From Ectocarpus siliculosus (lineage: Eukaryota > Sar > Phaeophyceae > Ectocarpales > Ectocarpaceae): a stretch of DNA of 54,234 nt. Positions 1 through 54,234 of the stretch are shown here, in pieces. The position numbers and the translations under genes are program-made. Location of the stretch: positions 219,612-273,845 of the forward strand of contig FN648187.1 in assembly GCA_000310025.1 (NCBI GenBank), given 5' to 3'. The notes beneath the pieces are model-generated. The model was not told the origin of the DNA and ran no database searches. It saw only the letters and a list, made by a program, of their open reading frames with translations. Every line of letters starts with the position of its first letter. Within the stretch, counting starts at the first letter, position 1.

Positions 1-3000
1 GAGGGGGGCCGCGGGGTAGGAAGAAGAGAAGACGAAATCGGGAAAAATTCGGGGTTGGCCAATCGCTCGCGTGAAACATGTTAGGAAGTTTTGTCAAGCG
101 CGAGTTTTTTTTATTCCTGCGCGCTTGTTGGGGTCTTTCGGGGGCTTGACCGGCGCCCCCTTTTTGTTTTACCCGGTCCCCGGTCCCCCCCTGAATATCG
201 CCCCCCCCCCCCTTTTTTTTTTTTTTTTTTAGTTTTTGATGCCGCGTAATTTCTTTGTTCTGAGCAGAGAGTTACGGTCCGTTGGGGATGAATGTACGTT
301 CGTGACAAGTACAGCGTCGTAAAGGCTGTACACACGTGACAAGCGTGGCTGGCTGCTGCTCTTTGTTATCGGTATTTTAACACTGGGTGAAGGAGGTGAT
401 GGGGGAGTATTAGAGGAGATGGGAATGCGCTGCATAGTCATCAACCATCACATGTGATGTCGATGTTGTTGGCGATGGTGATGATATTGATGTTTCCTCC
501 CGATGGCTGGCTGTCAGACGGTGGCCTTCTTTTTGTGTTTGTGTTGCTGATTTTTGTGGAAAAGGACAATGCGTTGTTTTTCTAATTTTGCTTCCGGCCA
601 CGGGGTGCGGTATCATGCATATAGAAGATCGCTGACTTGGCGTTGTTAGACTTGTTTTTGCCGATGCCGGCTGCCGCTGCTGGCCGCTGCGCTGTTGCTT
701 CTCTCTAGCTGTACTATCTGCTGCAGGCGCGCCGTTGGTTTTTGTCCCCCTGGCTGGAAACGATGGTTCAAGTCTATAGACGAAACGTGCATGGGCATGT
801 ACCAAAGAAAGGCGGCGTGATTTCTTGTTTTGTGGGCTCTGTGTGACGCTGCTGCTGCGGGGATGCCGCCGCTACTACCCTGTACGATGTTCTTGCCCTC
901 GCCTTTTTGTTTGTTTGTTTTGGCTGTTGCGTCGGTCTGGATAGAGTGGTTTAGATAGCGATACTTGTATATCGTGGTGCAACATCTTTGTGCGTCCGTT
1001 CACGGCCCCGCGAACCACAATGCGCCGAGGTGTCCCGCATATGTCCGTCAGATGTGTGCTGATGATGGTGGCGATGAGATGATGCAGGAATTAACAAAAA
1101 TAAAAAGGAGAGGAGGGAATGGTTGCTATGGGGGGAAAATTTATGATGGTCGAGGTTACGTCTGTGTGTTTTGAGCTTGGAGGGATGCCTGCAGGGGAGA
1201 GGGGAAGAGAAACGGTGCAACGTATCGTAATAACCCCGCTAATGGTGGCAAGTTGTGTGGCTCGCACATGCACACCATGACCCGAGGTTTTGTTGCAGGG
1301 TAAGAGGGAACGATTGGCGATGTTTTGGATATAGAGTACGCGTGGAAGTCTTGGTGTCGCTCAAGATACACGTGATGGACTTAGTATATCGCGCCACCTG
1401 TCGCGTGCTCTGCTGATGGCGTGGGGTCGACTACTTGTACCCGGCACCGCCCTGTACCTAAAAAAGTAGGTGAAGTACCTGCTGCGCCTGGAATAGAACA
1501 CTCGAAAGTCAAGAATCGAGGGCAAGGTGGCGCGTTCTCGTAGTGGTGGCTGCTCTCTGCTTTGCAGTTGGCGGTGGAGGGTGGGGTGACGGTGATAGAT
1601 TTTCACGCGTATGGACTGCAGAAAGGCATCCAACGGGAGGGGGGGGGGGGCAGTGGTGACGATACCGCAGGCCTTGGTGTCGTTTGTCGGCTGGAGCCCT
1701 TCCAACATGTTGTTAAAGCATTGGCGTGTAGGGGGTTGGGTTGTTGTCACTTTTTCCATATAGACGTGGTGGTAGTTTTGTATGATACCGTACCGTGTGT
1801 TCCTTTCCATTGCCCAGAAGCCCGAAGGGCAGTGGAAGAAGGGAAGCAGAGGTTAAGAACAGGGAGGCACACGATGTACAACTTGCATCGGCCGCTGCTT
1901 CATATCTCGTCGCTATTTGTAAGGTAGAGGGGGGGGAGGGCTATGTATGCGGCTCTTTGTTTGTTTTGTGTTTCCAGCTCTTTTAGCGCGATGATGACCA
2001 GACGGGGAGTGGTTGACTTCCGGTTTGTCTCTCGCTAGGTCTTCGCTGGCTATTTTTTGATAGAATTTTGTCCCGTCCCCTACGCGGGGGAATCATTTTT
2101 GCGGCTTTGCGAGCAGTTTTTTACTTGAAATGGCAGTTCAGTGTGACGCCGACGAAGTATAGAAGAAAAACCTTTTTTTTTGGAGGTTGGTAGTCAAGTC
2201 ACATTCGTCTTGTTTTCTCCAACATGTTTTGATCTGAAGTGCAAGAGGGCGGTCAGCTTCTGCCCGCCTCATCTCTCGCCCGTAGGAAGACGTCATGAGA
2301 AACACATTTTTGCAAGGGAGGGAACCGCGCATTTTGATTTCAATGTTTTCCATGCCGTAGCTGGCACGATTTTGATCGTGTATGGGATGGTCGACCAACG
2401 CCTCGCCTCCGGCTTCCTTGCCGCCTGGGTACGTGACAAGTTATTATGACTTTGGCGATGGCAAAACATATGTGTTGCTTGTTCTCGTCGCAATTGTGAC
2501 AATACGACGGTGGCAAAAACGCATGCATCTGCCGTGTTCTTCTTGTGTAGTCGGAAAGACAAAGTAAGGCGCATTCTCAACGAAGACCCCAAGGATTTTT
2601 CGACAATCACGTTGGCAGCAGAAAAAGCCACCGGGACAGATTTAACTTGGCGTCCGCCATTCAACTGTCTCCACTTAACTTGGCGCCTACTTGCGTCTTG
2701 TCTACTTCGAGCGATTTTGACAATTACCCCGCTTGTTCTGGACACCGCGTTCGAACCAACCAGTCAGCTCATAGACCAACACACATCAATCAACCGGGAG
2801 CCTGGCGCATACCACACGCCTACAGCAGGAGAGAATCAGCAGAGGCCACTCACTCTGGTCTCTGTGTTTCGCACTGTCAACCTGCACTTCAAACCTTTTT
2901 GGAAAGATGATGGCAGTCCAACCAAAGTAGCTAGCAGACGTGCAGTAAATATGTGTGACACTTTCCCGTACGGGACTGTCAGCAAACGGCCAGTAATTTT

Positions 3001-6000
3001 CGGGAGAACCCCAAGGTAGCCTGTTGACTAGTATTCGGGATCCCCAACAGTAGATATATTATACCGTTTTTTTTGTTTCTAGTGATCGAGAACGGGCCCG
3101 CGCGCCTCTGTCTCACTCTCATCTTCTACAGTAGTAGTAATAACCAGGCCCTGGGGTCAGCTGTAATAACGATATCAACAACATTCATTTTGTATTTCAC
3201 CTAGTTCTGAGGGTCACCGAGTTGCGTAACAGCACTCAGCAGTGTTCCACCTCTACTCTCGCATACAGCAGATTGTCTTACTTCTCAGCGAGCACCTACC
3301 TGCGGTAAGCTTTCCAAAGCGGGCCAGCCCGACGTGCTACCGCTGCAACCTTGTCACCAAGACTCTCACTCATCACCAAGCGTGATGCGCCGTGAGGTAT
3401 TCGGCGAGTCGCATGGAGGGTGCGCTGCATCCTGCTAATAATCCGTTGCTTTCTTCCCTTGCATATGGATAACAGCTGCAAATGACTTACCTCATTTTCT
3501 GGTGCTATCACTTCCAGAGACAAGTATGAGGGCTGTGTAACTGCCTCGAGGGTGCTTGGCCAATATAACACAACGTGGTGCGATCATCCTCTTTGCGGGG
3601 AGTGAGGTTCTCGACCCCAAACAACGTAATTTACTCGACCACCATTATGGTTACCGAAAGCAAAAACCAAAGGCAAAGAAACAAAGCGGATATCTGGTTG
3701 TCGAGCTCACGAAGCGATCGGCATCTTTTACAACAAACACCGATGCCTAACTAAGCGACCAAAACCCTGAAGCCCGAAGGCTCTCGGGAGGGGTGGGTGG
3801 GTGGGTAGTACTTTTGGGAGAACTACATGTAGGCGGCCGCTCCAGCAAAGAAAGGCTGCCTTTCTTTGTCGTCCGGCTTAAAACGCAGGCGTGGAGCGGA
3901 AGGAGAGGAAGGACTTGGGCTTCAACTTCCCGGGTGGGGTGGTTGTTCTGGTATTTTGACCCTTGGACAAAGATACTTTCTGGGCGGGTATATCGTTCAG
4001 GAATACCCCGACCACCCGCCGCCCAGATTCCTAATACTCCGACATTAGACACGTAGCGGTACAGGTTAGTAGCAGCAGCAAGCGATACGCAAGCGTTCTC
4101 CCTTGCTCAGCGTTGCCTGGGAATGAGCGATAGCGAGCGACTGAGAGAGATAGGAAGAATAATCAGGAAGGAGACAGACTGAAGAACTGAAGCGGCTTCA
4201 ACCTGCACACGGTGGTCGGACTAGCTCCACACTGAACCCGCGTCGAACATCGTCACATGGCGCTGTTTGATAATGCGACCCGTGACAGGGGGAAGCAGTA
4301 GTCTACATGTGTACAGCGGCAGTATCCCCATACGTTCCTGCTCGACGTCTCCTCGAGGACAACGTCGAAGGCCTTGATTCGGCCGTTGGTGTGGCTGCCG
4401 TAGATTGAACCCGCCGCACCCCCCCGCTTCATCCAGACTTCAGCCCCCATCAGCCTCAACCACCGTCATCCGCGAGATACTGTCGGCCGACGACATTTAT
4501 TTCTCTTCGTGGTTCCCCCTCCATATTTTCGTCACCTGTGCTTCGACTGGTCTTCTTACCGTCCTTCGACACCTCCTCTATACCTTTCCTTGCCGGCTTG
4601 TCGAAGCCGCCGGAGCACGATAGAAGCCGTAATCAATCCATTAGATAGACTAGTCAGCGCTGACTTACAGAAGTCCAGTGGTTTGATTTCGGCTTCTATG
4701 CACCCTGCTCACCAGCTCTTCGTTGTTGACAACTACCGACGCGCGCCTCTCCTCTGCTCTTGCGTGTTGACGGTATAGACTATATTTATTTGTGACCCCT
4801 TTCCCAGAATCTCAAGAAAATTCTTTGGGGGGTAAGACTATGTAGTACGTACATGTACGTGTGCACACATACATACTGTATTACGTCAGTGTCAAACACC
4901 ATGTCAAGAAGCAAGTTCATACGTCAGCAATGTGTGTGGACAGCTGCAGCAGCTGCAACAGGAAGCAGAAACATATAGTTTCCAGAGCAGTCGAGCCATG
5001 TCGTGGCGGTGTCAGCAAAGGTGCAGAGTAATGCAGACCATCATGCAGACCGCCGAGCCTCAGGTTGGGACCGACGTTGTTGGTATTGCGGCAGGTATGC
5101 GAGGTTTCAATCAAGAAAAATCCTCCATACAAATAGAGACAACACTTGCTTTCTTTGATTCACCTATCTATCTATAAGCACGAAGCAACAGCGATAATGA
5201 CACCACGGCTGGCCGGTTTTATGTAAGATCATGAGGACACTGGTGTGGTAGTTAGCACTCTGGGTGTAGCGAGTCTTTGGTCTAGAGGCGCCGAGATGGG
5301 TGAGCTCTAGGCGCGGGGGTCGGATGCCCTCAACAGATCTGAATGTATGTGGGCATGTGGGCGCAACAAACAACAAATTGTTTCAGGGTTGTTGTTCATC
5401 TTGCAGCAGTCAAATTCCTACAGAAGGATCTGTAATCTTTATGTCGAAGGAAAAGCTCCCAAAAATGGCGCAAACGCGCAAACGCCCTTGGAAGAAGCCT
5501 AGATATCAATATCACATAGACTATGCAGGTACAGCATCTGTTCTTGCATTGTCTTGCATCACCCCTTTGCCGCGGAGCCCTCTCCCCGGAGGGAGGCCTT
5601 GTACATACACACGAGAATATGTAGGAGAGTTTCGCTCTTCTTCTGTCGCTGAACCGGACTGAATCTCGCGGACCGACTCGAAGGCCTCCCACTTGTGCTC
5701 TCTGCTGACGAGAGACAGTCAAGTTTGCACCTGAAAATTCAAGTTTCTCGACATGAAGAAAGCCGATTTCCATTTTTTACCGCGCGCGGCGGGACTGCGA
5801 TCAGCCATCCAATCAGAACAGTCCCACGTTTCGGTTCTTCTTTCTCCGTTCTCCTCCTCCGCCCACCCGCCCCCCTCCCCCCCCCAACACACAACCAGCT
5901 GCAACAGCAGAAGATCTACTTTGTACCTTGAAAGCGCAGCAAAGCTACGCTTTCGGTAAAGCAGGACGCGTCCACCATGTACCTGTCGACGCGGGATCGC

Positions 6001-7681
6001 GTCAAGCCATGTCGGGTAATCGCCCTCACAAGAAGGCCAATCCCCAGACCAGCTTCGCCGCCGGGGATCAGCATCAGCATGCAGCGACGGCTAGGCTTGT
6101 CCCCGAGAACGACACCAGACCCCCATGCTGCTAATCGAACCGCACGGGTCGGAGAGGACAAGATCAAGCACCGCAGTGTCGGCATGGTGAGTCAACCGTG
6201 TACCGGTGCTGTCTAGGCAGGTCCGGGTGAAGACGTGCTGCTGATCGGTGTCAGGTGTTGCCATGCATGGGTATCATGTGCGGGTAGCTCGCGCTAATTA
6301 TTGATGCTTCGCCCGATCTAGAAAGACCAAAAATGCTACAATAATCGCCGCTCGATCACTGTAGGGCGTGCTTCCTTGTAGATATGTATCCCCGCACACC
6401 ACTGTTGTTCCAGGCATCCAAGCTAATCACCTGCACCTCCTTTTTCACGGCTGATCGGTCGACTACCTGCTGCGAAAGCTCACGAAGTACGTAGACGGGT
6501 TTCTTTTATGGTATCTTTGAATCTGAAAAGTGGAACCGATGTGTTGTTGAAGATCTATATGGGAGACATGGGGCTCGCCCCCGACATCCCGACATCGATC
6601 TGGCCTACACCCTCACGTTGCCACGGGTGGTTGACCTTGCCCTACTGTAGACCTCTGCGATTCGATTGACGGCATTGCCGTCGACTGACATCGTCGGCCG
6701 TAGCCGTGCTGGCCGCCCCTGCGGCGTTATCCCTGGCGCCGCGGTCTGTTGTTCGTGTCTTGTCTGTACGTGGTGAGACATGCGATCGCAAACACGAGCG
6801 ACAGACCGGCGCCGGGAATCACAACACAGCGGCGGCCATCAAGGACATCGCTGAGGGTGTCACCCGACCTTAATCCCGACCGAACTGCGCGGGTCGGGAG
6901 CAAGATCAAGCACCGTGGCGGCACGGTGAAAGAGGGTTTAGGCCGATCGAGCTGACTTGTAGCATAGTGGATATGCTGTACATCTTAACAGTCGGGTTGC
7001 CATCCTTTGTTAATTATTGTCTCGGCTAATCTCAAATATAAAAAAGAACCGAAACAGGAGCAAGAGAGACTAAGAGTACGTAAATAGTCTACATGTGCCA
7101 TTACTCTCTAGTCCGTTTCTACTAATGTCACTGCCTCTCGATCGCTCTAGGGCGTGCGTTCTCGTATGTATGTACCCCTCGTATTTTTGTTCCAGCCCTC
7201 CAACCGAAGCATCTGCATCTCCTTTTTCACGGGTGATCGGTGGACTCTTCGCGAAAGGCCTAGTGTAGATCGAAGAATCCAATACAATAGTTCAAAGTTG
7301 CGTGCATGTACATATTCCATAATTTTGGCATTGAATTGATATTTAATTATTTGTGCGATCGATGCGATGTCAGGAGAAGTCGCATCGAAAATCTACTGCT
7401 GCCGTAAACCCCGTTCGACACCCCTTGAGCGTTCGTGTTTTCTTAAGAAAGGTTATCACACCCAACCCGCACAAAAGCCTGTATCGCATTACTCCATTTT
7501 TTTTCGCGACAAGGGTTGAGCAAATCCTCATGCCTCCTCTGGCACCACGAACAAGACATTACACAGATGGGATTCAATATGGTCCTCCCGCTACGTAAAA
7601 CGTTGTGTAGCTTATATCGCCACTTATCTTCAACTCCTTGGTCCCGCCTACTCCCCTCCTGAAAACAACAACACACCAACA
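1..7681. other. No recognised gene; non-coding, repeat-bearing region
   Basis: I see no protein family, convincing splice-linked exons or RNA gene here. Open frames of 60-170 codons occur on both strands (for example 2510-3019 on +), but they show no familiar motif and have low-complexity or implausible composition. The first 230 bases are rich in homopolymer C and T runs. A diverged tandem repeat lies at about 5.96-7.28 kb (separate entry). The 5' end of the gene that starts near 7.7 kb, including untranslated exons, may lie in the last part of this stretch. Confidence 0.5.
5960..7280. repeat. Diverged tandem repeat, two units of about 0.74-0.78 kb
   Basis: Several blocks recur in the same order and orientation. 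The block around GATCAAGCACCG is at 6162 and 6904. The block around TAGGGCGTGC is near 6362 and 7149. The block around TTTTTCACGG is at 6441 and about 7222. The offset grows from 742 to about 785, so the copies differ by indels. The minus strand of both units can encode short hydrophobic, Gly-rich peptides (6185-5916 and 6924-6727), but no family is recognisable. This may be an old duplicated gene fragment or mobile element. Confidence 0.55.
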
Positions 7682-10900: not shown

Positions 10901-13900
10901 GCACCCACATACACCCCTTGGAAACCAAAGCCACCACCCCCACCCGGTAAGTGACCTATTACTCTAATGAGTGCTTACCATCCAATAACATGAAACGTTC
11001 GCTCCTGCTGCTGTTGCACCCCCGCTGTCTACCCGTACAAGCAGGAGGCGTCTCTCACGACCGTCAATGCTGAGGACAAGGTCGACGGGGACGAGGCCAC
11101 CACGGAGGAGGCAGAGTCAGCGGCGGCGGCGTCAGCGGCAGTGATGGCCTCGCTGCAAAGAGACCGCCTCGGGCAGGCCAGGGTCGATGCCGAGGCCGAG
11201 CTTCGCCGAGTGTTGGAGGGCATCTCGGATGCACAGAGGAAGGTCCTCCTTGTGGGGCACGGCCTGAAGGAGGAGGTTGCGGGCGGGACGAGGAAGGTCT
11301 TCGGGGAGTGCAAGAGCGGGCTGGAGACAGCCATCGGTAGGCTGCTGCTGTTCAATGGTTGTAGTAAATTGTACTGTCGTCCGTTGTATCGATGGAGGCG
11401 CTGTTACGCCTGGACTCGAGCCTTCTGACGGATCCCTCAAAACCGCTTTCACAGACAGGCGTTGCCTGCATGCAAGGGTTTGCATGCGCCAATTTAATTT
11501 AAAATGTTTGTCTACCTTGAACCCAGCGGTAAAGGTGAGAATGTGAGCGAGAGTTGATTGACAAACAACCGCTATGACGTGAGCATGAACTACGTTCAGG
11601 AATATTCCTGTCGCGGTACAAACATTGTAACGCACTTTCCACTTTTTTTGTTTCACAGGCAAGTGTGCCGCAATATGTATTTTGCGATTTTTTCTCGCTT
11701 TGGATGTCTCCTGCACACGCAAAATTTATTGTACGTGCCGCCGTCCACGCAAGCACGACCAGGGCAACCATGCGCGAAACACAAAACAGACAGCAAGCGG
11801 AACAACTTCTAATCGCTGTGAGCATGCCCCTCTCTCCCCGCCTTTCCGGTCACTTTGGATACATACGCTAGGCATCACGGGGAGTGTAGGGTCGGCGAGA
11901 GAGCTGGTCGCACCCACCCAGGCTGCGAGCGGCCTCCGAAGCATGGAGGCTGACGTCAAGACAATGGCTGAGACGCTTAGCAAGACGAGGTGAAATGCCG
12001 TACATCTACTGTGATTGATCATGGAAGCGGGCAAGGGTGCATGCGGGGCAGTAGTCTACGCAGCAAACTTGATTAAGCAAACATATGGGATAAAGTATTC
12101 AATCCGTGCTTTGGGGTTAGGGTTAGGGTTAGGGTTAGGGATAGGGTCTGCGTGCCCCCTCCCATTTATGTTTATACAAGTAGATACTCTTAAAATCCTG
12201 CGTAGGCGGTCCTGTGGGAAACCCGGTTTGGGGTCACCTCATCATCTTACGTTTCGTTCGGGAAAGACTCATTTTACGTGATATACCTGTTGGCTTCGTC
12301 CTGTTTAACCGTACGATCACCGACACAAAGAATCCTATGCACGTTTTCTCCCAAAAGCGCAAGATTGCACCCCAAACGTGTACGTTTTCACCCAAAACGT
12401 GCACCCCCCTACCAACGGAGGGGATAAGTTGGAAGCTCTTTTCTTCTGCCTGTAGCTCTGGACCTTATCCTGCCACAACAATGTAGAGGCACCATTTTGT
12501 TTGTATTTTCTGTGATTGTGTTGGCGTTGTAGGCCATAAGTGTACTCGTTCGCCGTCTTCATCCAACCACGTGGCGCTTTCATTCACGTGCCCCCCCCCC
12601 GCCCGGTGCTTGCCGTTGTGGTTGGCGCGTTGTTGCGCAGGAGGGACTGCCAGGCAGCCCTTGAAAAGATGGAGCTGTGGCGGGAGCGAAAAGAGGCGCT
12701 GCCCGAACACGTCAAGGTAAGCAGGCGTGGCAGGTTTACCATTGTGAAGGTGTCGCGTTTTCCTCGAGTAAAATACGATAAAATACAGGCAAGACTTGAG
12801 CATGCACGGCTGGTCATGAGCACACGCACACGCACACACCCCGCTCTCCATCTTCTTCCCTTTCTTGCATGGACCCTCTCGCAATGACAATATGCAAAAA
12901 AACCAGCACGTGGCGGGCGAGGAGAGGGCATGGTTCGACCGCGAGGCCGCGACCAACGCGCAGGCGCTGCGGCGCATGCGCTCGCTGATGCCGGTGGGCG
13001 TGACCGGGCTCACGCTGTCCGAGTTGGAGCAGCAAGCCATCGACGCCGGCTCGTTGTACCCGAGGGAGTTGTCGCTGAGACTGAAGGTACTGTAACTGGA
13101 GTGATTAGGTACACCAAGGGTGGGAGAAAATATGCGTGCAATCAAAGAAGTATTATCCGGTCGAGATTTAACGACAGGCAGTACCAGTAGTCGAAGAGGA
13201 TGATGGGTTGAAGTCTTTACGGCGAATGGAAGAAAACTGGTCCTATTTCGAGTCTACCAATGCCTACGCCCACCGGCATCAGCGAGCGTATGCAACGCAG
13301 TCTCAGGGACGACTCCCTCGGGTACAGAGAGCCTGCGTCGATGGCTCGCTGCTCCAACTCGGACAGCGTGAGCCCGGTCACGCCCACCGGCATCAGCGAG
13401 CGCATACACCGCAGCATGCTCTCGTTGATGCCGGTGGTCATGACCGCCCTCACGCTGTCCCAGCTAGAGCGAGCCATCGACGCGGGCTCGCTGTACCCGA
13501 AGGACTTGTCGCTAAGACTGCGGTGCATGTGCTCGCTGATGCCGGTGGGCGTAGGCATAAACCACACTCGAAAATATGCGTGCAATCAAAGAATTGTTGT
13601 CCGGTCGAGATTTAACGACAGGCAGTAGTCGAAGAGGATGATGGGTTGAAGTCTTCACGGCGAATGGAAGAAAACTGGTCCTATTTCGAGTCTACCAATG
13701 CCTACGCCCACCGGCATCAGCAAGCGTATGGACCGTAGTCTCAGGGACAACTCCCTCGGGTACAGGGAGCCCGCGTCGATGGCTTGCTGCTCTTGCTGGG
13801 ACAGCGTGAGCCCGGTCACGCCCACCGGCATCTGCGAGCGCATACACCGCAGCATGCGCTCGTTGATGCCGGTGGCCATGACCGACCTCACGCTGTCCCA

Positions 13901-16900
13901 GCTAGAGCGAGCCATCGACGCGGGCTCGCCGTACCCGAAGGACTTGTCGCTAAGACTGCGGTGCATGCGCTCGCTGATGCCGTTGGGCGTAGGCATAAAC
14001 CACACTCGAAAATATGCGTGCAATCAAAGAATTATTGTCCGGTCGAGATTTAACGACAGGCAGTAGTCGAAGGGAGTGATGGGTTGAAGTCTTTACGGCG
14101 AATGGAAGAAAACTGGTCCTATTTCGAGTCTGTTTAAGTCCATACACTGAAATACACCAGCGAAGGGATGTGAATGTGCAAGGGTGTGATGATCGGGGGG
14201 AAGGGGCTCCTGATCGGCGGATAAATCATTGAGTTGGTATCTCGGAGTGGGGAATGGAGGCCTGCGGGGATGGAGGGATGCCTGCTGCCGTTCGTTTCTA
14301 AAACATGGGAAGGTAGAGAGAAAACATGGGAAGGTAGAGAGTTGAGAAAGAAGGGGTGTGGTGATCGTGGCTGTTCGCGTGTGTCCTCTTTTAGCATTTC
14401 TTTAGTCCTACCTTGTTGTGATACGGCACCTCAGTGTCCTTACCTTCTGCTGTCGCGTGCTAGGGCAGCAGGGGGTCAGTGAGGCTTTGTTGCCCTGCTT
14501 GGTTACACCTTCGCTTCCCTTTGTGCATTATTTCTCACCCAGTCTTTGAACATCCCCGCCCTTGCCGTACCGGTTTCCTTGCCGCTCGCTGGTCTTTCGT
14601 CCCGTCACCGTCGCCCCCCCAGGAGAACCGGCTCCTCCAGTGGACGGTAACGCACCCGGACGACATCGCCAGGAGCAATTTCCTCCAGGGCTCCCACGCC
14701 CATTTCTTCACCAATCTTGACAAGGTATGGATCAATTGAGTGTATATGTAGGCTTGCACAGACTCAAAATAATCAAGCCATTTTTTTTTCCCAATATCTG
14801 AAAAGACTTGAACCCATCCCCTTCGTCTGCTGTGGTTTTATCTCGAATGGGTAGTCTCTCTGTGTTTGTATGTAGATTTTCTAACAAAATATTTCAATAT
14901 ACCACCGGTGAAGGAGGTGGGTCATGATATCGTATCTTGATATCTTGACTCGCACAACAAAGCACGGTGCCTGGCGAGGAAGACAAGCGGAAACGAACAC
15001 GATCCTCACACTTCGATCCTCACACTTCGTGTAACACTTGTCTTCTTCGTAAGGTCAAACCGTCTGAACCGATTTCCCCAGGCGCAGAGGTAGTGAGTGG
15101 GTGGTAGACCATCCTCTTTCTTTTCAGAAAAAACATCCTACGCGATGTTAAAAAGAGTATGAATGCGTAAATGTGACTGCCAATGCTGTGTGTTTGTTGG
15201 GTGCTCTGGGAACAGCTGTCTGTATCGTTCCTTTAGATCCTTTCCGGATCTACCCGAAGAGTTCAACATGCTCAAAAATGGTGTGCGAAGTGGCACCGGC
15301 GCACCAAAAACCGATGAGCTAGACAGTCAATACCTACAGCCAGTGCCGTCGTGGATGCTGTGCGAGACGTGTATGTATGTGATACAAAGCGGTCTTCTTT
15401 TACAAAACTATATAGAGAAAAACTTGTGTGTGGGATGCCTTGCTCCTGTGTGACTTGATTGACCCCCTTCTCAAGAATTGCATCGAAAGGTGAAAATACC
15501 GACGTCCAAAATAAATGGGATGACACACCTCAGTAATAGACTTAACCCCACCACACCCGGGAAGAAATCGAGAGGTAGCTTGACTGTTGTTTCGCTTCTT
15601 ATCTATTCATCGTGTTTGTTTCCAGAATTGTATCGGAAGGCGAAAATACGGACGCCCAAAATAGACGGGATGACACACCCAATAATGCCTTAGTCGAACC
15701 CCACCACTCGTGAAGAAGATATCGAAAGTTTTCTTGACTGTTCGTTGTGCTTCTTTTTGTCTCTCTGTCGTGATTTCTGTTTTTGTAGTACGACCTGGTG
15801 GAGATGAGAGCGATCCTGGCATGCCTCCCGGACAAGTTCGAGGTGGACGATGACGGTCGCAAAGCCGCCTGGAGGGCCGAGTTCGTGCAACGGGCTAAGG
15901 GGCTGGTCGCACAGGTGAAACAGACAGGAGCCACATAGAAGGGAAAGGGAGAGAGAGAGAGAGCACGGTATGGTAATAATTTACTGTAACAGCTATATAT
16001 GTTCGGCAGTATTTAGGGTAAAATCAGCGTTGTCTTGGCATCCCATTTGGTCTGGACGCCGACTCTCACGCCATCAATGTTATCTATTTTGTTTGGACGC
16101 ACTGCTACTAGCTGTATCACAAAGTAAGAAAGTCCAAACAGACCGGAGTCCCCGCCCGCCCTCCACCTTCCGGCTGCCTGCTGTGACTGCCTTCCTTTCT
16201 ATCTCGAGCAGGATTTATCTATGCGTTTCTTTCTCTATTTAGTCGACCGTGAAGTAAAAATAATGTGTACACACCACACAATTGATGGCTGCCCACGATT
16301 GTTTGTTGTAGCATACTCCAGCCAAGTTCGACAGCCACACTCTGTGCTCCACGCTATCCCACCGAAGCAACATGTTGGCCCACAGCAACTCATTGCTACA
16401 CAGGCCAGGTAGCATATTATCAACGCGTTTGCACATACACAAACATCCCTCATTGCGTATTTTGTTCTCGCTCGTGTCTATCGTGCTTTGGGGTTTCCAG
16501 GAGAGAGGAGACACGGTCAGCGGGGGCTGGGACCCCGAGATCTCGGCCAGGCGGCAAGTGCGCCTCCCCGAGCTGAGCGCAGGGCAGGCCAGGAGGGAGG
16601 AGTACTTCTATCCGACGGCGGCGGAGGTGCAGGCCAGGGTGGACAAGCTCCGAGAGCGGCAGCGCAGGCTGGAGGTCAAGCAGGTCGACGTGGCCAAGGT
16701 GAGTTCGGCTTCCCGCGTTGTCATTAGTTGCATCGGCCGCGCTAACCGGCTGACCAATGAACGTAGACGTCAGTCTCAGTGCGATCGAAATCAGAAAATG
16801 GGCATGAAGGCCATTGTCTGGTACTCCATATGCTATGTGTGCGCGCGTTATGTGCGTGTTTCTTGAATTAACATCGTTGAAACCTGCTGAAGAAAATGAA

Positions 16901-18516
16901 AAATGTCGCGAAGCATGCGGAGTTGATTTCTAACAAGAGGCAACAGCATGAAGAATCATCAATTCTTTCGTCACCTTGATTCTCACCATCCATCCATCTC
17001 CTCACGGCCGCGCTGTCGTCGCCACTATCAGGTGAGGGACGAGCTTCTCCCCGAGGCGAGACGAGAGTACGAGTACGTCCTCGAGGACTCTCGCCACCCG
17101 TTCAACAGGGCCACGTGCAAGCCAGAGGATCTCCGGAGGGCCAGAGAAGAGGCCAAGTCGGAGGTCACCAGGTATGCATGTGTGTTTGTGGTTTTTCTGG
17201 AGTAGAACGTATTTTGTGAGAATTGGAAATACCGGTCGGTATGTATGTATGGTAGATGCGCTTTTACTGTACCATAGAACATATTTTGTGAGGATTGGGA
17301 ATACCGGTAACTCGACTCCATGCCTACATGCAAGTCAAGATTTATAATCGCTACCCCCCCCCGTCAAATAAAACCCTCACACAGGCTGTCGAAAGAGGCG
17401 AAACGCCTCGAGGGTCACGTGGAGTCGGCGGCCCGCGCGCTGCGGGAGAGCCCGTCCACGGTGGACGGCACCCTGGCGGGGGCCGCGGCTACCCGCCGGT
17501 TGCTGTCCGCAAGGAAGCTCCTCCGCTTGCAGCAGCAGCAGCAGCAGCAGCAGACGGAGACGACAGCCACCGCCACTGCTTCCGTCCCGGCACGTGGCCC
17601 GGCGGCCGCGGAGGCGGAGACGGCGGCATCCACTGCGGAGGCGGCGGCGGCGGCGGCGGAAACACCCACTGCGGACGGGCAGGTAGAGGAGGTGGAGGAG
17701 GACGAGGAGGAGTTCGAGGTGGAAGAGGGGTCGGAGGTCGAGGGAGCGTTCGACCCTAACCCCGAGCTCCGGTCGAGGCTGAGCGACAAGAGCAAGTCCC
17801 TCCGGTTCGTCACCGCGGACGAGGAGGCCGAAATCCGGAAGGAAGAGCTGGGGAGGGTCTTCTCCTGCTCCTCCCGGGGGGCCCGCGGAATGGCAGGGGC
17901 CAACGGCGGCAAGAGCAGCACCAACGGTGGCGGTGGTGATGACGCCGAGGGGGAAGACGAAACGGCCGGAGGGAAGACTTCGGCCGTCGGTGGAGGGCAC
18001 GCCAAGGACCGCATCAAGGCCTTCGGCGCGGTGCTGGAGAAGACCCTGAGCAAGACCGTGCTCGGGCGGGCCCCGGCTACCGCTCCCGGTCGGACCAGGA
18101 AGGCGGGCACCCCGCCCCGGCCGCAGCAGCGGGACTCCAACGCTGCGGCCGTCGCCGCCGCTGCGTCGTGGGAGCCGAAGTCTAAGCACTTCCGCGCCCT
18201 CCGGTCCGCGACCGCCGCCAGGAGCAGTGGCGGCTCTCGCTTGACCGGCTGCCCGAACCCGCCGCCGCCGCCGCCCCCGCCGATGCTGGGAATGCTGTCG
18301 CAGATCCGGGCCCGCGGCGGCGGCGGCGACCGGCAGAGCGGCGGTGGCCAAGCGGCGGCAGGCATCGGCGATCTTCTGGCGGAGATCCGGACCCGCGGAG
18401 AGCGGGGTGGCAGCGGCGGCGGTGGTGGCGGCGGCGGCACCCAGAGCGGTGGTTGCGAAGCGGCGGCAGGAATCGGCGGGCTTCTGGCGGAGATCCGAGC
18501 GGCGAAGCGCGGTTGA
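7682..18516 (+). CDS. Coiled-coil protein with C-terminal poly-Pro and three WH2-like motifs (putative actin-binding protein)
   Basis: Fourteen exons join with unbroken phase: 7682-7977 (5' limit uncertain), 8400-8763, 9148-9364, 9823-9948, 10156-10269, 11045-11336, 11872-11989, 12641-12716, 12907-13086, 14623-14724, 15789-15914, 16501-16698, 17032-17171, 17385-18516. From the in-frame ATG at 7830 this gives 1110 residues; a start at 8402 or further upstream is also possible. The order is a Ser-run low-complexity head, a basic segment, and a long charged helical, coiled-coil-like middle. This is followed by a better-ordered block (14623-15914, with HPDDIARSNF and YDLVEMRAIL), then more coiled coil, a Gln run and an acidic stretch (17677-17755). 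The tail has eight prolines (18258-18281) and three repeats of the form LL.EIR (18282, 18361, 18473). Poly-Pro followed by WH2 motifs is the layout of actin nucleation factors such as JMY/WHAMM. The LKKV half of WH2 is weak and there is no acidic CA tail, so the actin link is inference. The last four exons recur inverted at 51.2-53.9 kb. Confidence 0.72.
7864..7974 (+). repeat. (AGC)n trinucleotide repeat coding a Ser run
   Basis: Imperfect AGC/GGC repeats interrupted by a short GATGAGGGC stretch. In the frame that links by phase to the next exon they read as serine with some glycine. The donor GTGAGA follows directly at 7978. The other frames would give Ala, Cys or Leu runs. A length-variable site is expected. 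Confidence 0.85.
12113..12147 (+). repeat. Interstitial telomere-like (TTAGGG)n tract
   Basis: Four or five consecutive TTAGGG units (one changed to ATAGGG) inside the intron between exons 11872-11989 and 12641-12716. Shorter relatives lie at about 37197-37213 (complement strand) and 37857-37873. Confidence 0.85.
13187..14130. repeat. Tandem 438-bp units, each a long palindrome built from the upstream exon
   Basis: The string GTAGTCGAAG recurs at 13187, 13624 and 14063, giving two full units of 437-439 bp and a partial third. Each unit contains a palindrome of two arms of about 150 bp (13258-13412 / 13413-13558 and 13696-13851 / 13852-13997). Both arms closely match exon 12907-13086, one in antisense and one in sense, including the stretch coding MPVGVTGLTLSELEQ. 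The array lies in the intron directly after that exon. Flank 13130-13186 is also repeated in the unit ends, so the exon and its donor flank form a half-unit. The copied exons lack the original AAG/GTACTG donor. Confidence 0.9.
14300..14341 (+). repeat. 21-bp tandem duplication
   Basis: The sequence around AAACATGGGAAGGTAGAGAG occurs twice head to tail within an intron. Confidence 0.85.
15471..15790 (+). repeat. Tandem duplication of about 160 bp at an intron 3' end
   Basis: Blocks AGAATTG.ATCG, GGGATGACACACC, AACCCCACCAC and CTTGACTGTT occur in the same order in two consecutive units (about 15471-15632 and 15633-15788). The second unit runs up to the acceptor of exon 15789-15914. The same tandem pair is present in the inverted copy near 53934-54234. 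Confidence 0.75.
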
Positions 18517-20545
18517 GGCCGGGACGCCCCGATAGCGCCCCCAGTCGGGGAAGGGTCTTTTGTGTGATATTTTTTCACATACTGGTACCAAATGGAAAAT
18601 TTCGGTTGTATAGCATATGTTTTCTGAAACGTACGGTTAGCTACCGTTCTGGCGGGACCGTTGGTTCAGGTACTTAAGAGTTGTTGGGTCTACTGCTATT
18701 AATACTGTTGCTTCGGAACAGGTACTATGACTTGTTGTGTCTACTTTTACTTCGGAACAGAACCGAAGATGCTTGACGAAATTTTGCTTGAGAAGAAGAG
18801 GCATTCGTTCCTCTTGATGGTTGGTGTCACCACCCGGAATTTAGTCTTAGCGTCTTGGAATGGACACGGAGGCGCGGGAGAGGAAGAGATAAAGGAGAGA
18901 GAAGGTATGATGCATGGTAGGTGTTGTGTCGCTGCTTGGTGTATCGCAGCATAGTGTTTGTGTAAAAGTGCTTTTGTTTAACCCTTTACGTGTGTAGCCA
19001 GTCTACTTTTTTGTGTACCTGTGATTTGAAGTGCACAGCCTATTTTAATCTAACGTATTGTACATCCAGTGTAACACCAGTTAATTAGTGTTGTGTGAGC
19101 CTGTAACTTGAAAGCGTACTGGCAGATACGCCTGATTTTGAGACATACAGGGAGACGTGATGTGAACGTGCATGTGCAGTCAGTCTATTGTTTTACGTGG
19201 CTGTGAACTCATGTGCGCCATTGATTTTGACACAGGGAGAGGTGGGGTGAGCGAAGTGCCAGTGGTTGCCTCGCGGCTATCGTAGTCTAAGCTCTAAACC
19301 CACCTTGTTTTCATGCAGGACTTTGATAGTTCGTGGGGCGTCTAAACATTTGTTCATACATACAGGGTTAGAACTTTCCTGTGCCAGTCTTCTACTTGTA
19401 GACTGAGGTCTTCTGGGCTAATTTTGAGATATGGAGGCGAAAGGTTGGTTTCGTGCAAGCAAGGTGTTCATAACACGAAGAATGAATGGTGGTGATGTGT
19501 CGAAAGAGTTGGCGTAACGACATGCCGGGTCCCTTTGCGACAAATGGTGTGTACGTGCGAGGGGTAATAGGAGATTGGTGGTGGTTACCACAAGAGCGTT
19601 TTGCGTTTTTCCCGCCGTTTGAGGGCGGCTTTGTACCCATGCCCGTCGTTGTGCTTGTAGATTATTTCACTCACCATTACCCTTACCGATATTTTATACG
19701 GACCATCCCCATGTAGGCTAAAACGTGGGGTTGTGTAGGCATGTGTTGAGCGCGTTGCTCGCTGTGCAGAAATGGCTAAATGTTGTGAAGTAACAGGAGT
19801 GAGTATGCTAGACTACATAGACAACAACATTGTTTTTTTGGTACGGGTACCCCAGAAACGCCCTTCCTTCCTCCTGGAGGCGCTTGGGGGCTGGCTCCAC
19901 GTTGTTGGCCTTGGCCACCTCTTGGTGTTGCTGTTGAACAACGTTCGAAACTCTACCCCTATGGTTTTTCTGTCCTTCCTTACGGAGCGCGCCCACGCAA
20001 TCTGGAAGCCATACCTAGTGCTGGCCGCAAGTACACGTCCGGTTATATTGCCGGTATATATCGGTTGCCCGCGATAATGCCGGTCGGTGCAATCGGCTGG
20101 ATCGCACCGGCATTATCCCGGGACCACTACTGGACCAGCGAGGGCGGGGGAGAAGATGTCCTTACCACGTTTCTTTCCTGCAGGAAATCCTTCAACCCAT
20201 GGCCTTCGACTGTGGTTATTTCTCGAACGTGCAGTCTCTCTTTGATACATACCATGTATGGTTCCTAAGAAAGAAATCCTTGTTTCGTTCATGTCCGCAC
20301 AACAAAATCACCGAACAAAATCACGGGGGTTTCGGGTACATGTCTCGCCCCCCCCCCCCCCGTCCGTGCAGACCAAGAGGCTTTCGGCGCCACCCGTTTT
20401 GCTACATCACGCTCATCGAAGATCCTGCTAGCCCATAACACGGGCCGTGCTGCACCACACATTATTATGTGCGTCAGAGGGCTGTGTGCTTGACTCCGAG
20501 AAGGGCGTCATCTCCGCTTTGCCGGTGTGATGTAGCCGCACGAGA
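18517..20545. other. 3' flank of the WH2-like gene; no recognised gene
   Basis: This lies wholly inside the inverted repeat. Open frames of 60-100 codons exist on both strands (for example 19772-20077 on + and 19996-19808 on -, the latter Gln- and Lys-rich). They are kept in the other arm, but conservation between recent copies is no evidence of coding. Diverged short repeats around CTGTGATTTGAAGTGCAC occur at 19010-19230. A C-run lies at 20347-20360. Confidence 0.5.
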
Positions 20546-20732
20546 ATGTTGTGTCATGTTTACGCACAAGTGTTATTACACAAAGGCGTTGTTACACACA
20601 AAAGTATTGTTGTTATCACACAAAAGTATTATTGTTATCACACAAAAGTATATTATTGTTGTTATCACACAAAAATATTGTTATTATCACACAAAAGTAT
20701 TGTTATTATCACACAAAAGTATTGTTATTATC
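20546..20732 (+). repeat. AT-rich minisatellite, 19-22 bp unit
   Basis: Units of the type CACACAAAAGTATTGTTGTTAT repeat with 19- and 22-bp variants until the sequence breaks into N. The unit length shifts the frame from copy to copy, yet none of the frames contains a stop. This yields spurious open frames of His-Thr-Lys-Val-Leu character. Confidence 0.92.
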
Positions 20733-20832: not shown

Positions 20833-21575
20833 ACCCTTTGGGGGGGGTCCAGCCAATGGAAACATTTCGGAGGACAAAAAATCATTTGGGGGGGCATTGG
20901 GGGGGGGGGGGGGGGGGGGGAGGTTAGTTAGTGACGACACGACGGAAAAATATATATCAAAATATGGGGGTACGTCCGATTGATGTTCCTGCTATCGTCT
21001 CCATCAACTACATCAGTCCGGTACACATCTCTCTATCCGTTCAGCCATCTCCGCCCTGCTCCCTTCGGCTGCAGTCGTGTCTTCTGCCGTTCGACGTTTC
21101 CCCCCCTAGTTCTCCCTTCCCGCCCTGCTCTGCTGTCCGTTTGGTCTGCTGTTCGGTGTTTTTCTTGTTCCGTTCCTCCGCACGTGTCGTATGCTTAGCT
21201 TCTCTTGCTCCTTGTGCCATTTGACCATGATGAACATCTCCGCTCCCTGCATCACCCTTTCGTACCACGGCAGTTCCTCCGTCTTTTTCGACATGGATCG
21301 TTCATTCGGCAAATCAAAAGCGTGTGATTGGTGACCAGACTAGCACGGAAGGCACAGGTGGCACCGTAGGCCCTCGCACACTATTAGTAGTATAGAGAGG
21401 TTTATAGCAGAGCAGTTCATGCATCATCAGTGGCGGTGTCGAGCAGCGTGTTGGTGTGCCTCTCTCTGTTCTCTCTTTCGATCGCTGATGACAACGAACA
21501 ATCGCTGGTCTGGTCAACACGCACATACCAACACCATTATCCCGGGGGGGTGATAACGCACACGGTGATAACCAC

Positions 21576-21615
21576 GGAGTCTCCATGGTCAGCCATGGGC
21601 AACCATGGAGACTCC
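21576..21615. repeat. Perfect 14-bp inverted repeat with 12-nt loop
   Basis: GGAGTCTCCATGGT (21576-21589) pairs exactly with ACCATGGAGACTCC (21602-21615). The loop itself contains CCATGG. It would form a stable hairpin in DNA or RNA. No flanking gene suggests a terminator role. Confidence 0.85.
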
Positions 21616-24043
21616 ATGGTGAAAATGCCCATGTATGTACAAGACCCCTTGAGACGGCCCTTCCCTCTGTTGTGAGCCCGTTGGCAAAACGAGAAAGTAG
21701 GGCTTCAGTTGAGGCCGGGACTACCCCCGGGTTGTTATGACAGGTCATGGCTGGATTACGACCGCGGGTTATGATCCACTAGTTTGGTCATATTCTTGCG
21801 AAAGCCAGAAACAACAAACTACACTAGGTCCTGACCGGGTCCCGGGTCATGACTCTGTCGATGATGAACATGATGAACTTACCGTCGCCACATGAACAGG
21901 GTACTACATGTAGCCTCAGGGAAATAAATGACGGATGTTAAAGATGGGCCTGGAACTGAGCAGAGGCCGAATCGGTTTTGATGTAGCGATGACAGCAACA
22001 ACAACAACAGCTACTGACAGCAGACAGCAGATCAGCAGATCTCGGTCGTTGTGCCGGTTCATCGATCCAAGAACCTGCGAACCGGTTCCGTTCTTTGCGC
22101 GCTGCACGTTGCATATCTTGCCCATCCACGCAATCATGCATATCGTTTCTTGTCGTTGAAAATCCACGCTTCCTGCCTATCCTCCTGCTCCTTGCGGCAC
22201 TTCTCTCCGAACACGCTGCATCGAGGCTGCGACCAACATGTTGTTGACAGTGTGGCTTTCACCGCTCTTCCTCTTGGTCCAGGGCATCGGTGCTGGTACC
22301 GAAAAGGTGAGCGAGACGGAGAACACAGACGACACGCATTTCGTGACCTTTTCTACACGACAAGGACGGCCCTACGATACGCGAGTGCGCACGTATGTAC
22401 GCAAGTCCTTCATTGAGGTGAAAGTCGAAACCTCTTGTTTGGCATTGTGTTCTTGGATAGAGCCACACTCAGCTACAGCCGGCGGCAGGGGTGGTCGTGT
22501 GTATGGATTGATGTGGTGCCAGAAGGGTTAAGACCTAATGTGGGCGCTTGTGTGTCTACAGCAGCAGCCTCATACATATCCCTGCCCAGGGAAACCAATA
22601 GCACGCCCACCTGAAGCAGACACCATTTGCACGGTCATGCCATCCATTCTCCCCAAGAGTGCTCTATTTAGCGCAACCCTCAGCTCTCGTGCGGCGTTGA
22701 TCAACGTTAGCTGAGTGATGGGGTCATGTTCTTGAAGCGTACCTCCCTTGCAAAGAAATTTGATCAGAAAATGTTTCGGCGGTCAGATTGTGGACAGCCG
22801 CGCGTGGTTCAGCAACTAGCAACACACGCTGGGTGCTGCCGTACCCACATCCGGACCGACAATCCTTGATTACCTAGCTCGTTGCCTCTGGAAGAGGTTG
22901 TCTGTTACACGTCTCTAGGAGCAGGATGAGTGCACGTGAATACTTGTATACCAACGCGTCGTACAGAGCGGGTTATTTACAACGAAAAGCACAGCAAATA
23001 TACAACGCCCACCGCGCTTGCCTTGGTCTGTGGACCGAAGCTATACACCAATTATTTTTTGACAGAAATATCCGCCCATCCGCCCAACACACCCGCCGGC
23101 ACCCACACGCACATATTTGGGAAAGCTGTCCACGTCGCTACATTTTCGGTGACGTCACCACGATTGACTGAAACTTCGGAAGATGGAGGGATTTCGGGAG
23201 ACAGACGACGTGGACCTTTCAACGTAAGACGTAATCATAGTAATGACGGACTGTTTCTGGCTCGCTACAATGTAGATATATTGAACGGTCGCTCCGTAGT
23301 AGTAGTGGTAAATTAACCTCGTGAACACTCATAGCAGCAAATCTGATTCTCTCTCTGCATCAAAGCAAAACAAAACAAAAGTGGAAAACCCATTGTTCGT
23401 GACAGCGGGTAGACAACGGAGGAAATGTGGGGAATAAAAAATACCAACAGAAAGAAAGCTGTGTGACCTGGATGGAGGAAGTTATATGGGGAATGGACTA
23501 GAAAATAATGAATGGTGAATGTGTCCCCGACATCAGTAATGCCTCGCAAACGTGTCTACCTCCAGCATCCTATTGTTGTGTGCATGTGGGGGCACGTGCT
23601 TTGGCCAATGGCTGAGCAGCTGAATGTTGTCAATGACATAGATAGGGGGCGAGAGCCTTTTCGGCGGGAACGCTGGGGGTATGGAATACTCCCGTATTCC
23701 TATACTAGATAGGGCGGGGTAGTGAGTCGCGGGGTAGCGACTCAACACATGTACCTCGCAGTAGTCTTATCTGCAATGAATGCTGATGGTGCACGAATGA
23801 ATGCCGACACGCAGCTGCGAAGGTGTACCGATTCTGGTAAAAGTCAATCGACGGATACCCTGCGAATCGGATCCTCCTTAACACTCTCCACCCACAGAAT
23901 TTACCCTCAACTGGGAACCTCTTGTGGCCAGGACGGGTAATTCGATGGAAGTGTCACAAGGTTCTTTATAGGATCGATTCCAAGTAGAGGTGTTCTCAGG
24001 ACTGACACACATTGTGTCCATGGGAAAATGCCCAAGTCAGGAG

Positions 24044-25591: not shown

Positions 25592-27489
25592 ATGACCCTG
25601 GATGCCAGCTATCCGGGCGAACTTGTCCAACCCATCTCCGATGTCATGCTGCGGGAGTCCATGACTTTTGGCGAGTACTTCAACCAACCCATGAATGGGA
25701 TCTTGTGGCCCGACTCCCTGAAAGAGATACGGTTCGACAAAATCGACCATTGCAATTCTCGGACTGCAGGTGGTGTCATGCAACCCATCGCGGGTGCCAC
25801 GTGGCCTGCCTCCGTCGAAATTATGGTCTTTGGCCCAACCTTCAACCAGCCCATCGCGGATGGCACGTGGCCGGCTTCCCTACGGCAGCTGTCGTTCGGG
25901 CACTCCTTTAACCAGCCCATCGAACAAGTTGTGTGGCCAGCTTCCTTGCAGCAGCTTTCGTTGGGGGACGGATTCAACGAGTCCGTCACCGGGGTTGTGT
26001 GGCCGACCTCACTGCAAGAGCTATCGTTCGGGACGAAATTCAACCAGCCCATCGTTGGAGCCTTGTGGCCGGCCTCCCTGCAACAGCTATCGTTCGGGAT
26101 GAAATTCAACCAGTTCATCGCCGAGGTCGTGTGGCCGGTCTCCCTGCAGCAGTTGTCATTAGGGTGGAAATTCAACCAGTCCATCGCCGAGGTCGTGTGG
26201 CCGGTCTCCCTGCAACAGCTGTCGTTTGGGAGGGAATTCAACCAGCCTATCGCCGAGGTCGTGTGGCCGGCCTCCCTGCAGCAGCTGTGGTTCGGGGACA
26301 AATTCAACCAACCCATCGCGGGTGTCACGTGGCCTGCCTCCCTTGAAATTCTGGTCTTTAGTAGCCAAAGCTTCAACCAACCCATCGCGGATGTCAAATG
26401 GCCGGCCTTGCTGCAGTTCCGTTCGGTATGAAATTCGACCAGCCCATCGCCGAGGTCGTGTGGCCGGTCTCCCTGCAACAACTGTCGTTTGGTAGGGAAT
26501 TCAACCAGCCTATCGCCGACGTCGTTTGGCCAGCCTCGCTGCAGCAGTTATCGTTCGGGTGTAAATTCAACCAGTCCGTCGCCGAGGTTGTGTGGCCGGT
26601 CTCCCTGCAACAACTGTCCTTAGGGTACACATTCAACCAGCCGATCGCCGAGGTTGTGTTGCCAGCAAGCCTCCAGGAGCTGAGTTTTGGGCACAACTTT
26701 AATCAGCCTATCGCCGAGGTCAGGTGGCCTGTCTCCCTGCAACAGCTATGGTTGGACTGGAAATTCGACCAGCCCATTGTTGGAGTCGTTTGGCCGTCCT
26801 CGCTTCAAGTATTGTATTTGGGGGGAAGCTTCAACCAACCCATCGAAGAAGCCGTGTGGCCGGTCTCCTTGAAGCAGCTTTTGTTCGGGTCCCAATTCAA
26901 CCAATCCATCGCCAGGGTCGTTTGGCCGGCCTCGCTGCAGCAGCTATCGTTTGGGCAGCTATCGGATGGGCCGAGTGGGTCTGAATTTAACCAGCCCATC
27001 GCGGAGGTCGTGTGGCCGGCCTCCCTGCAACAGCTATCGTTCGGAACGAATTTCATCCAGCCCATTGTTGGAGTCGCTTGGCCAGTCTCCCTGCAGCAGC
27101 TATCGTTCGGGTGGCATTTCAACCAGTCCATCGCCGAGGTCGTGTGGCCGGTCTCCCTGCAACAGCTATCGTTCGGGCAGGAATTCAACCAGCCTATCGC
27201 CGACGTCGATTGGCCAACGTCGCTGCAGCAGCTTTCCATCGGGTTCGCATTCAACCAGCCCATCGCGAATGTCACGTGGCCGGTCTCCCTTGAGATTCTG
27301 GTATTTGGCGCAAGCTTCAACCAACCCATCGAGGACGTCACGTGGCCGGCCTCCCTGCGGCAGCTGTCATTAGGGTTCTACTTTAACCAGCCCATCGAAC
27401 AAGTTGTGTGGCCAGAGTCTCTTGAAACACTTACGGTCGGGGGCTGTGCCCAACCTATCGTCCAAGGAGACCAGCCGACCGCGGAGTGA
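25592..27489 (+). pseudogene. FNIP-type repeat protein, about 27 repeats, broken by one frameshift
   Basis: Two open frames (to 26431 and from 26398) together encode a solenoid of 22-residue repeats with consensus FNQPIAEVVWPASLQQLSFG plus two variable residues. I count about 12 before and 15 after the break. This matches the FNIP repeat (a leucine-rich-repeat relative known from Dictyostelium, giant viruses and algae), usually a protein-interaction module. At 26411-26416 the unit reads CTGCAGTTCCGTTCGG where other units read CTGCAGCAGCTATCGTTCGG. That is a 4-nt loss that shifts the frame and brings a stop 15 nt on. Restoring register would give about 633 residues. The start used is ATG 25592; a GTG lies upstream at 25526 after an in-frame stop. 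An acceptor-like CAG at 25574 hints at a 5' exon, and a candidate frame (25181-25525) precedes it, but their phases do not fit. One unit near 26955 has a 10-residue insertion. A truncated but expressed gene, or an assembly error, is possible. Confidence 0.85.
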
Positions 27490-48976: not shown

Positions 48977-49230
48977 GATAACAACAATACTTTCGTGTGA
49001 TAACAATACTTTTGTGTGATAACAACAATACTTTTGTGTGATGACAACAATACTTTTGTGTGATAACAACAATACTTTTGTGTGATAACAACAATACTTT
49101 TGTGTGATAATAACAATACTTTTGTGTGATAACAACAACACTTTTGTGTGATAACAACAATACTTTTGTGTGATAACAACAATACTTTTGTGTGATAACA
49201 ATACTTTTGTGTGTAACAACGCCTTTGTGT
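48977..49230 (-). repeat. AT-rich minisatellite, second array
   Basis: The same 19/22-bp unit as at 20546-20732 in opposite orientation and with more copies (about 11-12). It marks the inner edge of the right duplication arm. Beyond it the sequence turns into unshared DNA (GGCCGCATCG at 48968-48977). Confidence 0.92.
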
Positions 49231-53933: not shown

Positions 53934-54234
53934 CTACAAAAACAGAAATCACGACAGAGAGACAAAAAGAAGCACAACGAACAGTCAAGAAAACTTTCGA
54001 TGTCTTCTTCACGAGTGGTGGGGTTCGACTAAGGCATTATTGGGTGTGTCATCCCGTCTATTTTGGGCGTCCGTATTTTCGCCTTCCGATACAATTCTGG
54101 AAACAAACACGATGAATAGATAAGAAGCGAAACAACAGTCAAGCTACCTCTCGATTTCTTCCCGGGTGTGGTGGGGTTAAGTCTATTACTGAGGTGTGTC
54201 ATCCCATTTATTTTGGACGTCGGCATTTTCACCT

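Follow-up and report, generated by a model that had tools for sequence, protein, structure and literature searches.

Introduction

MIRNA genes reportedly arose by inverted duplication of gene pieces. This kind of origin (Allen et al. 2004) is close to the structure described here in that a gene piece is copied as an inverted repeat, giving a long hairpin that matches its source, and the same likeness holds for the small-RNA precursors of the S-locus, in the part of the report that treats them (PMC13128112). The structure lies in a stretch of 54,234 nucleotides of Ectocarpus siliculosus (assembly GCA_000310025.1, contig FN648187.1, positions 219,612 to 273,845 of the forward strand), hereafter the window, in which one intron of a gene (gene 1) carries two tandem palindromes built from antisense and sense copies of the preceding exon (exon E). 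The intron-located microRNAs (miRNAs) of Ectocarpus are similar as intronic hairpins, which almost always share the strand of their host gene (PMC4513859). Known from DNA alone, the present hairpin differs from MIRNA and S-locus precursors in its position within the source gene's own intron, beside the copied exon, and from the Ectocarpus miRNAs in its arms of about 150 bp, which copy an exon of the host gene.

Inverted copies of local origin, a mixture of direct and inverted repeats and microhomology at the joins are shared with short-range template switching (PMC7954356) and with microhomology-mediated break-induced replication. Compared with these template-switch systems, the arms here are about 150 bp long, the snap-back would be complete and followed by a later tandem duplication, and recurrence is seen on exons of one gene family. 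In literature searches covering open-licence PMC papers only, no account was noticed of a gene whose intronic hairpins copy its own exon. To judge from its sequence, the array was probably made by local replication-based template switching with snap-back and subsequent tandem duplication; the structure is unusual, the mechanism is known in kind and the function is unproven.

Architecture of the Intronic Array

Exon E (12907-13086, plus strand), the source of the intron copies, is an open frame of 180 nt, corresponding to 60 codons with phase 0 at both ends, with AG upstream and GT downstream. At the protein level the exon finds matches over its full 60 residues in gene 2, the inverted duplicate of gene 1 (95%), and in the relatives C25 (78%), C17 (75%) and C20 (65%). 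By comparison with paralogs, the region 13087-14622 (plus strand), from the GT after exon E to the AG before the next exon (14623-14724, plus strand, conserved in paralogs), is judged to be an intron, and an intron occupies the same position in C25, C17 and C20.

This intron contains an array of period 438 with the layout a1-P1-a2-P2-a3 (13126-14131), for which Tandem Repeats Finder gives 2.3 copies and 94% matches. P is 314 bp long and the copies of 'a' are 124-130 bp; in particular, a1 spans 13126-13255, P1 13256-13569, a2 13570-13693, P2 13694-14007 and a3 14008-14131, all on the plus strand, with P2 94% identical to P1 (295/314, gapless) and the sequence beyond a3 absent after a1 and a2. 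Self-comparison detects one palindrome per unit (13260-13558 and 13698-13996), with 83% identity over 302 aligned bases (E 1e-86). These results, together with the paralog comparison, agree with an earlier note on this DNA, which had described exon 12907-13086 as followed, in a single intron, by two tandem 438-bp palindromic units with arms of about 150 bp.

The antisense half of P1 extends from about 13260 to 13415 and the sense half from about 13413 to 13558. The former contains A1 (13298-13415, minus strand), an antisense copy of exon positions 12966-13083 with 93% identity over 118 bp, and the latter S1 (13413-13522, plus strand), a sense copy with a 3-nt deletion; sense arms are 84% identical to the exon, so that the arms are near-copies of it in both orientations, as claimed earlier. 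To the single copy per arm then recognized a second, partial copy of exon 12967-13001 must be added, lying on the outer side at 13266-13300 (minus strand, 91%) and 13518-13552 (plus strand, 94%), and the overall layout becomes a-P-a-P-a. The order along the antisense half is exon 13001-12967 and then exon 13083-12967, and the sense half is its mirror; it also mirrors AGGCAT, six non-exon bases identical in all five outer pieces compared. The two exon copies join at a CTG microhomology (13081-13083 and 12967-12969, by eye), and the palindromes turn at or next to a perfect 10-nt palindrome of exon E, GCGCATGCGC (12972-12981). The remaining joins show short filler, clear microhomology not being seen there. 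The inserted sequence has a local source, copied in both orientations.

Distribution of the Unit, Gene 2 and Paralogs

A DNA search of the genome (189 Mb) with one unit returned 19 matches, of which 7 belong to gene 1, 4 to gene 2, 6 to relatives of the exon (four at C11 and one each at C25 and C17) and 2, weak, to 'a' (C33 and C8). Within the limits of this search, which the earlier note had proposed, no locus with the 438-bp unit was found outside gene 1 and gene 2, a result that speaks against a common dispersed repeat.

The second gene copy placed by that note at 51-54 kb belongs to an inverted duplicate of the gene, of which it is the 3' part (in-window part 48977-54234, minus strand); the exon matching exon E is located outside the window. 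Alignment of 48977-54234 with 15488-20137 gives 97% identity over 4,671 bases, and then 87-90% in a tandem repeat; on its 5' side the duplicate keeps an identity of 97% over about 4.5 kb, and on its 3' side over 4.7 kb. The gene 2 copy of exon E and its array stand beside a run of N to the right of the window (L003 1-4282), which follows the exon and 'a' and begins inside the antisense arm. The first junction is common to both genes, which dates the start of P to before the duplication of the gene. Counted with its two edge bases, the N run exceeds the corresponding interval of gene 1 by 2,186 bases, equal to 4.99 units of 438 bp; five more units may fit this surplus, and the N-run length may itself be an estimate. 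At the inner ends of the inverted duplication there are two related 22-bp tandem repeats in opposite orientation (20588-20732 and 48977-49220).

No palindrome was found on reading through the intron that follows exon E in C25, C17 and C20. The C25 intron provides an empty site, recognized by alignment on the right side of the insert and by eye on the left, the global alignment having misplaced the left flank inside a3.

C11, a degenerate-looking relative, carries four separate palindromes in 5.2 kb (stretch L004). They lie at 2799-3196, on exon E (161 bases of overlap with the sense exon match), at 3938-4077, on the exon preceding exon E (49 bases), at 4511-4853, on an earlier exon (124 bases), and at 6085-6369, on another earlier exon (57 bases); of 100,000 random placements, 880 give every one of the four an overlap of 40 bp or more with an exon match, in a test devised after the data had been seen. 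The palindrome on exon E turns at a different place from those of gene 1 and is therefore taken as a separate event. The exon before exon E also occurs three times in direct orientation in this locus (L004 2381-4222). The next C11 stretch, L011, has four inverted repeats at stricter settings, which indicates that they abound in the C11 region outside the exons as well; a palindromic stretch lies at L011 852-1235.

Nine random stretches were taken as controls, one consisting entirely of N and the other eight amounting to 74.8 kb; an inverted repeat was present in two of the eight at stricter settings and in four at looser ones. One of the two (L013) contains a long palindrome at 7005-7473 that, lying between outer inverted repeats, is probably a transposon. 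The paralog stretches L005, L006, L009 and L010 showed no inverted repeat at stricter settings, and L006 had one short inverted repeat at looser settings.

Divergence of the Arms

Between E1 and E2, the exon E copies of the two genes, there are 3 differences in 180 sites. Relative to E1, differences are found at 8/118 sites in A1, 12/118 in A2, 19/110 in both S1 and S2, and 12/96 in the gene 2 arm, whose final bases, adjoining the N run, seem altered. The two arms of a unit diverge by 17-19% (A1 and S1 20/108, A2 and S2 18/108), and the distances between units are 4/110 for S1 and S2 and 10/118 for A1 and A2. The tree groups the five rows of other paralogs (support 84), E1 with E2 (87) and S1 with S2 (100); the arms as one group are supported at 56 and the branching order among them is not settled.

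The dN/dS ratios (nonsynonymous to synonymous) of the five arms against E1 range from 0.19 to 0.47, in pairs that include change on the constrained exon branch. The four changes between S1 and S2 are all at second codon positions, and those between A1 and A2 are distributed 2, 4 and 4 over the three positions. The two exon E copies of C11 differ 9, 6 and 7 times by codon position, one of them having a stop; coding constraint is not seen, given this even distribution and the second-position changes of S1 and S2. Regarding pairing, none of the 19 differences between P1 and P2 belongs to a pair changed on both sides; one-sided changes keep the pair in five cases and break it in five, and nine fall on positions that P1 leaves unpaired. 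Selection, whether on coding or on pairing, is not clearly indicated; the power is low, and for pairing there are two units to compare. A coding role of the sense arm was considered and set aside: its frame is open and a whole codon is lost, but S1 and S2 differ solely at second positions, and convincing splice sites were not seen by eye.

Predicted RNA Folding and Small-RNA Machinery

The P1 RNA has a predicted folding energy of -253.1 kcal/mol, whereas 100 shuffled sequences average -122.6 (sd 5.3; z -24.8); folding, as suggested in the earlier note, gives a stable structure. The note had expected two hairpins of double-stranded RNA (dsRNA); the potential for dsRNA holds on folding, while their separateness does not, since the predicted minimum-energy structure of 12907-14131 joins the exon to A1, the first antisense arm (111 of the 117 bases of exon 12967-13083), and S1 mostly to A2; the GT at 13087 is also paired. 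The energies of the two competing duplexes are about equal (E:A1 -256 and S1:A1 -254 kcal/mol). A1 matches the exon in a perfect run of 58 nt, which, with the predicted pairing, makes small-RNA or splicing effects possible. Perfect 21-mers in common with E1, and likewise with E2, number 38 in A1 and 14 in A2; no 21-mer of either arm recurs in the exon E copies of C25, C17 or C20. Of the C11 exon E palindrome, tested against five exon E copies, the sense arm shares two 21-mers, with C17, and the antisense arm none.

Parts of a small-RNA machinery are present in the genome at the domain level, judging from six Piwi-domain matches, all at one locus, two RNase III-domain matches and two loci of RNA-dependent RNA polymerase (RdRP), some RdRP matches containing stops. 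In keeping with the one Piwi locus, a single Argonaute is reported for Ectocarpus (PMC12867755). Small RNAs bound to its RNA-induced silencing complex (RISC) are enriched for introns (PMC12867755), and miRNAs within protein-coding genes are mainly intronic (PMC4513859).

Origin of the Array and Alternative Explanations

The a-P-a layout, the junction microhomology and the turn at GCGCATGCGC point to replicative template switching with snap-back. In the order of steps that we infer, the polymerase would have departed from its template at the end of 'a' and resumed about 250 bp back, exon E would have been copied in antisense in two pieces, and the new strand would have snapped back on itself to generate the sense half; re-entry at the start of 'a' would then have left copies of 'a' on either side of P, and the P-a block would later have been duplicated in tandem. 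The first of the template-switch steps would precede the inverted gene duplication, and similar events may have struck exon E and three other exons in the decayed paralog C11. The RNA hairpin would most likely be a tolerated by-product, with incidental dsRNA or small RNA possible.

Some observations weigh against this explanation. A snap-back copy should begin identical, and the simplest version leaves the unequal distances of the arms unexplained. The antisense arm is nearer to the exon than the sense arm, which could reflect constraint on, or conversion of, the antisense arm; in relative-rate tests with E1 as outgroup, unique changes were 4 in A and 14 in S for unit 1 (p 0.03). The corresponding counts were 6 and 11 for unit 2 (p 0.33) and 5 and 10 for the gene 2 arm and S1 (p 0.30), and over five outgroups 2 of 15 tests fell below 0.05 (p 0.03 to 1.0, uncorrected). 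Moreover, all four C11 palindromes sit on exon matches, which plain random template switching does not predict.

Among the alternatives, the one deserving most attention, albeit unlikely, is a proto-miRNA or hairpin-RNA source, in which the intron hairpin would be diced to 21-nt RNAs tuning the gene and its duplicate through their own exon. The long and stable predicted fold, the similarity of the inverted-repeat arms to the target gene, the 21-mers that A1 and A2 share with E1 and E2, the Piwi, RNase III and RdRP matches and the reported intronic bias of Ectocarpus small RNAs are consistent with it; A1 and A2, however, match the exon better than their own hairpin partners, no P1-P2 pair is changed on both sides (at low power), and the C11 antisense arm lacks common 21-mers. 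It is doubtful that the antisense arm acts as a splicing modulator, pairing with exon E, enclosing the 5' splice site and favouring the skipping of a frame-neutral exon. The predicted pairing of the exon with A1, the paired state of the GT, the near-equal duplex energies, with the exon transcribed ahead of S1, and the whole codon number and phase 0 of exon E would suit such a role, but the insert is not seen in three paralogs and there is no clear sign that it is maintained. The exon-by-exon palindromes might also be a recurrent functional feature of the family, a self-directed small-RNA or splicing circuit in which C11 would be a decayed hairpin locus against four parent-gene exons; this reading appears similarly improbable.

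The earlier idea of an exon captured by a foldback element, or by a Pack-type transposable element, does not survive the comparison well and is now very improbable. In its favour, 'a' weakly resembles a dispersed repeat, in reverse orientation with respect to the member at 14802-14880 (plus strand), a likeness noted for a1, and TACACCA stands on either side of the insert (13110-13116 and 14153-14159, plus strand) as a possible, weak, short target duplication; a shared 7-mer between the 40-nt flanks arises in 5.9% of shuffles. Against it, the search, within its limits, gave no unit-bearing locus beyond gene 1 and gene 2, the flanks of P are copies of a 124-130 bp stretch and not a short target duplication, the copied exon is the immediate neighbour, and the 30-base ends of the insert, if bounded by TACACCA, are not mutual inverted repeats (9/30 positions equal). 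Least credible of all is an assembly artefact from chimeric or foldback reads: palindromes are hard to assemble and the gene 2 copy enters an N run, but P1 and P2 differ by 6%, gene 2 independently has the same first junction, and arms that are 17-19% apart within a unit are not read-level artefacts.

Inverted gene copies are the raw material of hairpin-RNA loci. If small RNAs arise from the array, it would be a natural self-directed gene hairpin, observed while a small-RNA locus is coming into being, probably in a lineage whose multicellularity evolved independently; even if it is inert, one family with exon palindromes at five places is a test case for the origin of inverted copies.

Gene Identity and Other Features of the Window

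In the Pfam search neither gene 1 (one joined peptide and nine open frames) nor the relative C55 (two open frames) gave anything above cut-offs, the PDB sequence search for the identity of the gene gave no match at E 0.001, and Rfam at gathering thresholds gave no match in the window. The last exon of gene 1 has what we take, by eye, to be a WH2 and poly-proline character.

The dispersed repeat family of 14802-14880 is short and abundant, with 779 genome candidates, 40 of which were scored. Outside the array the window contains, at stricter settings, one short palindrome (21571-21620); further palindromes are found at 6670-6878, upstream of gene 1 (65%), and at 39322-39541 (64% over 220 bp). 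Large tandem arrays of a 66-bp coding-like unit, with FNQPI-type repeats by eye, occupy 25841-27397.

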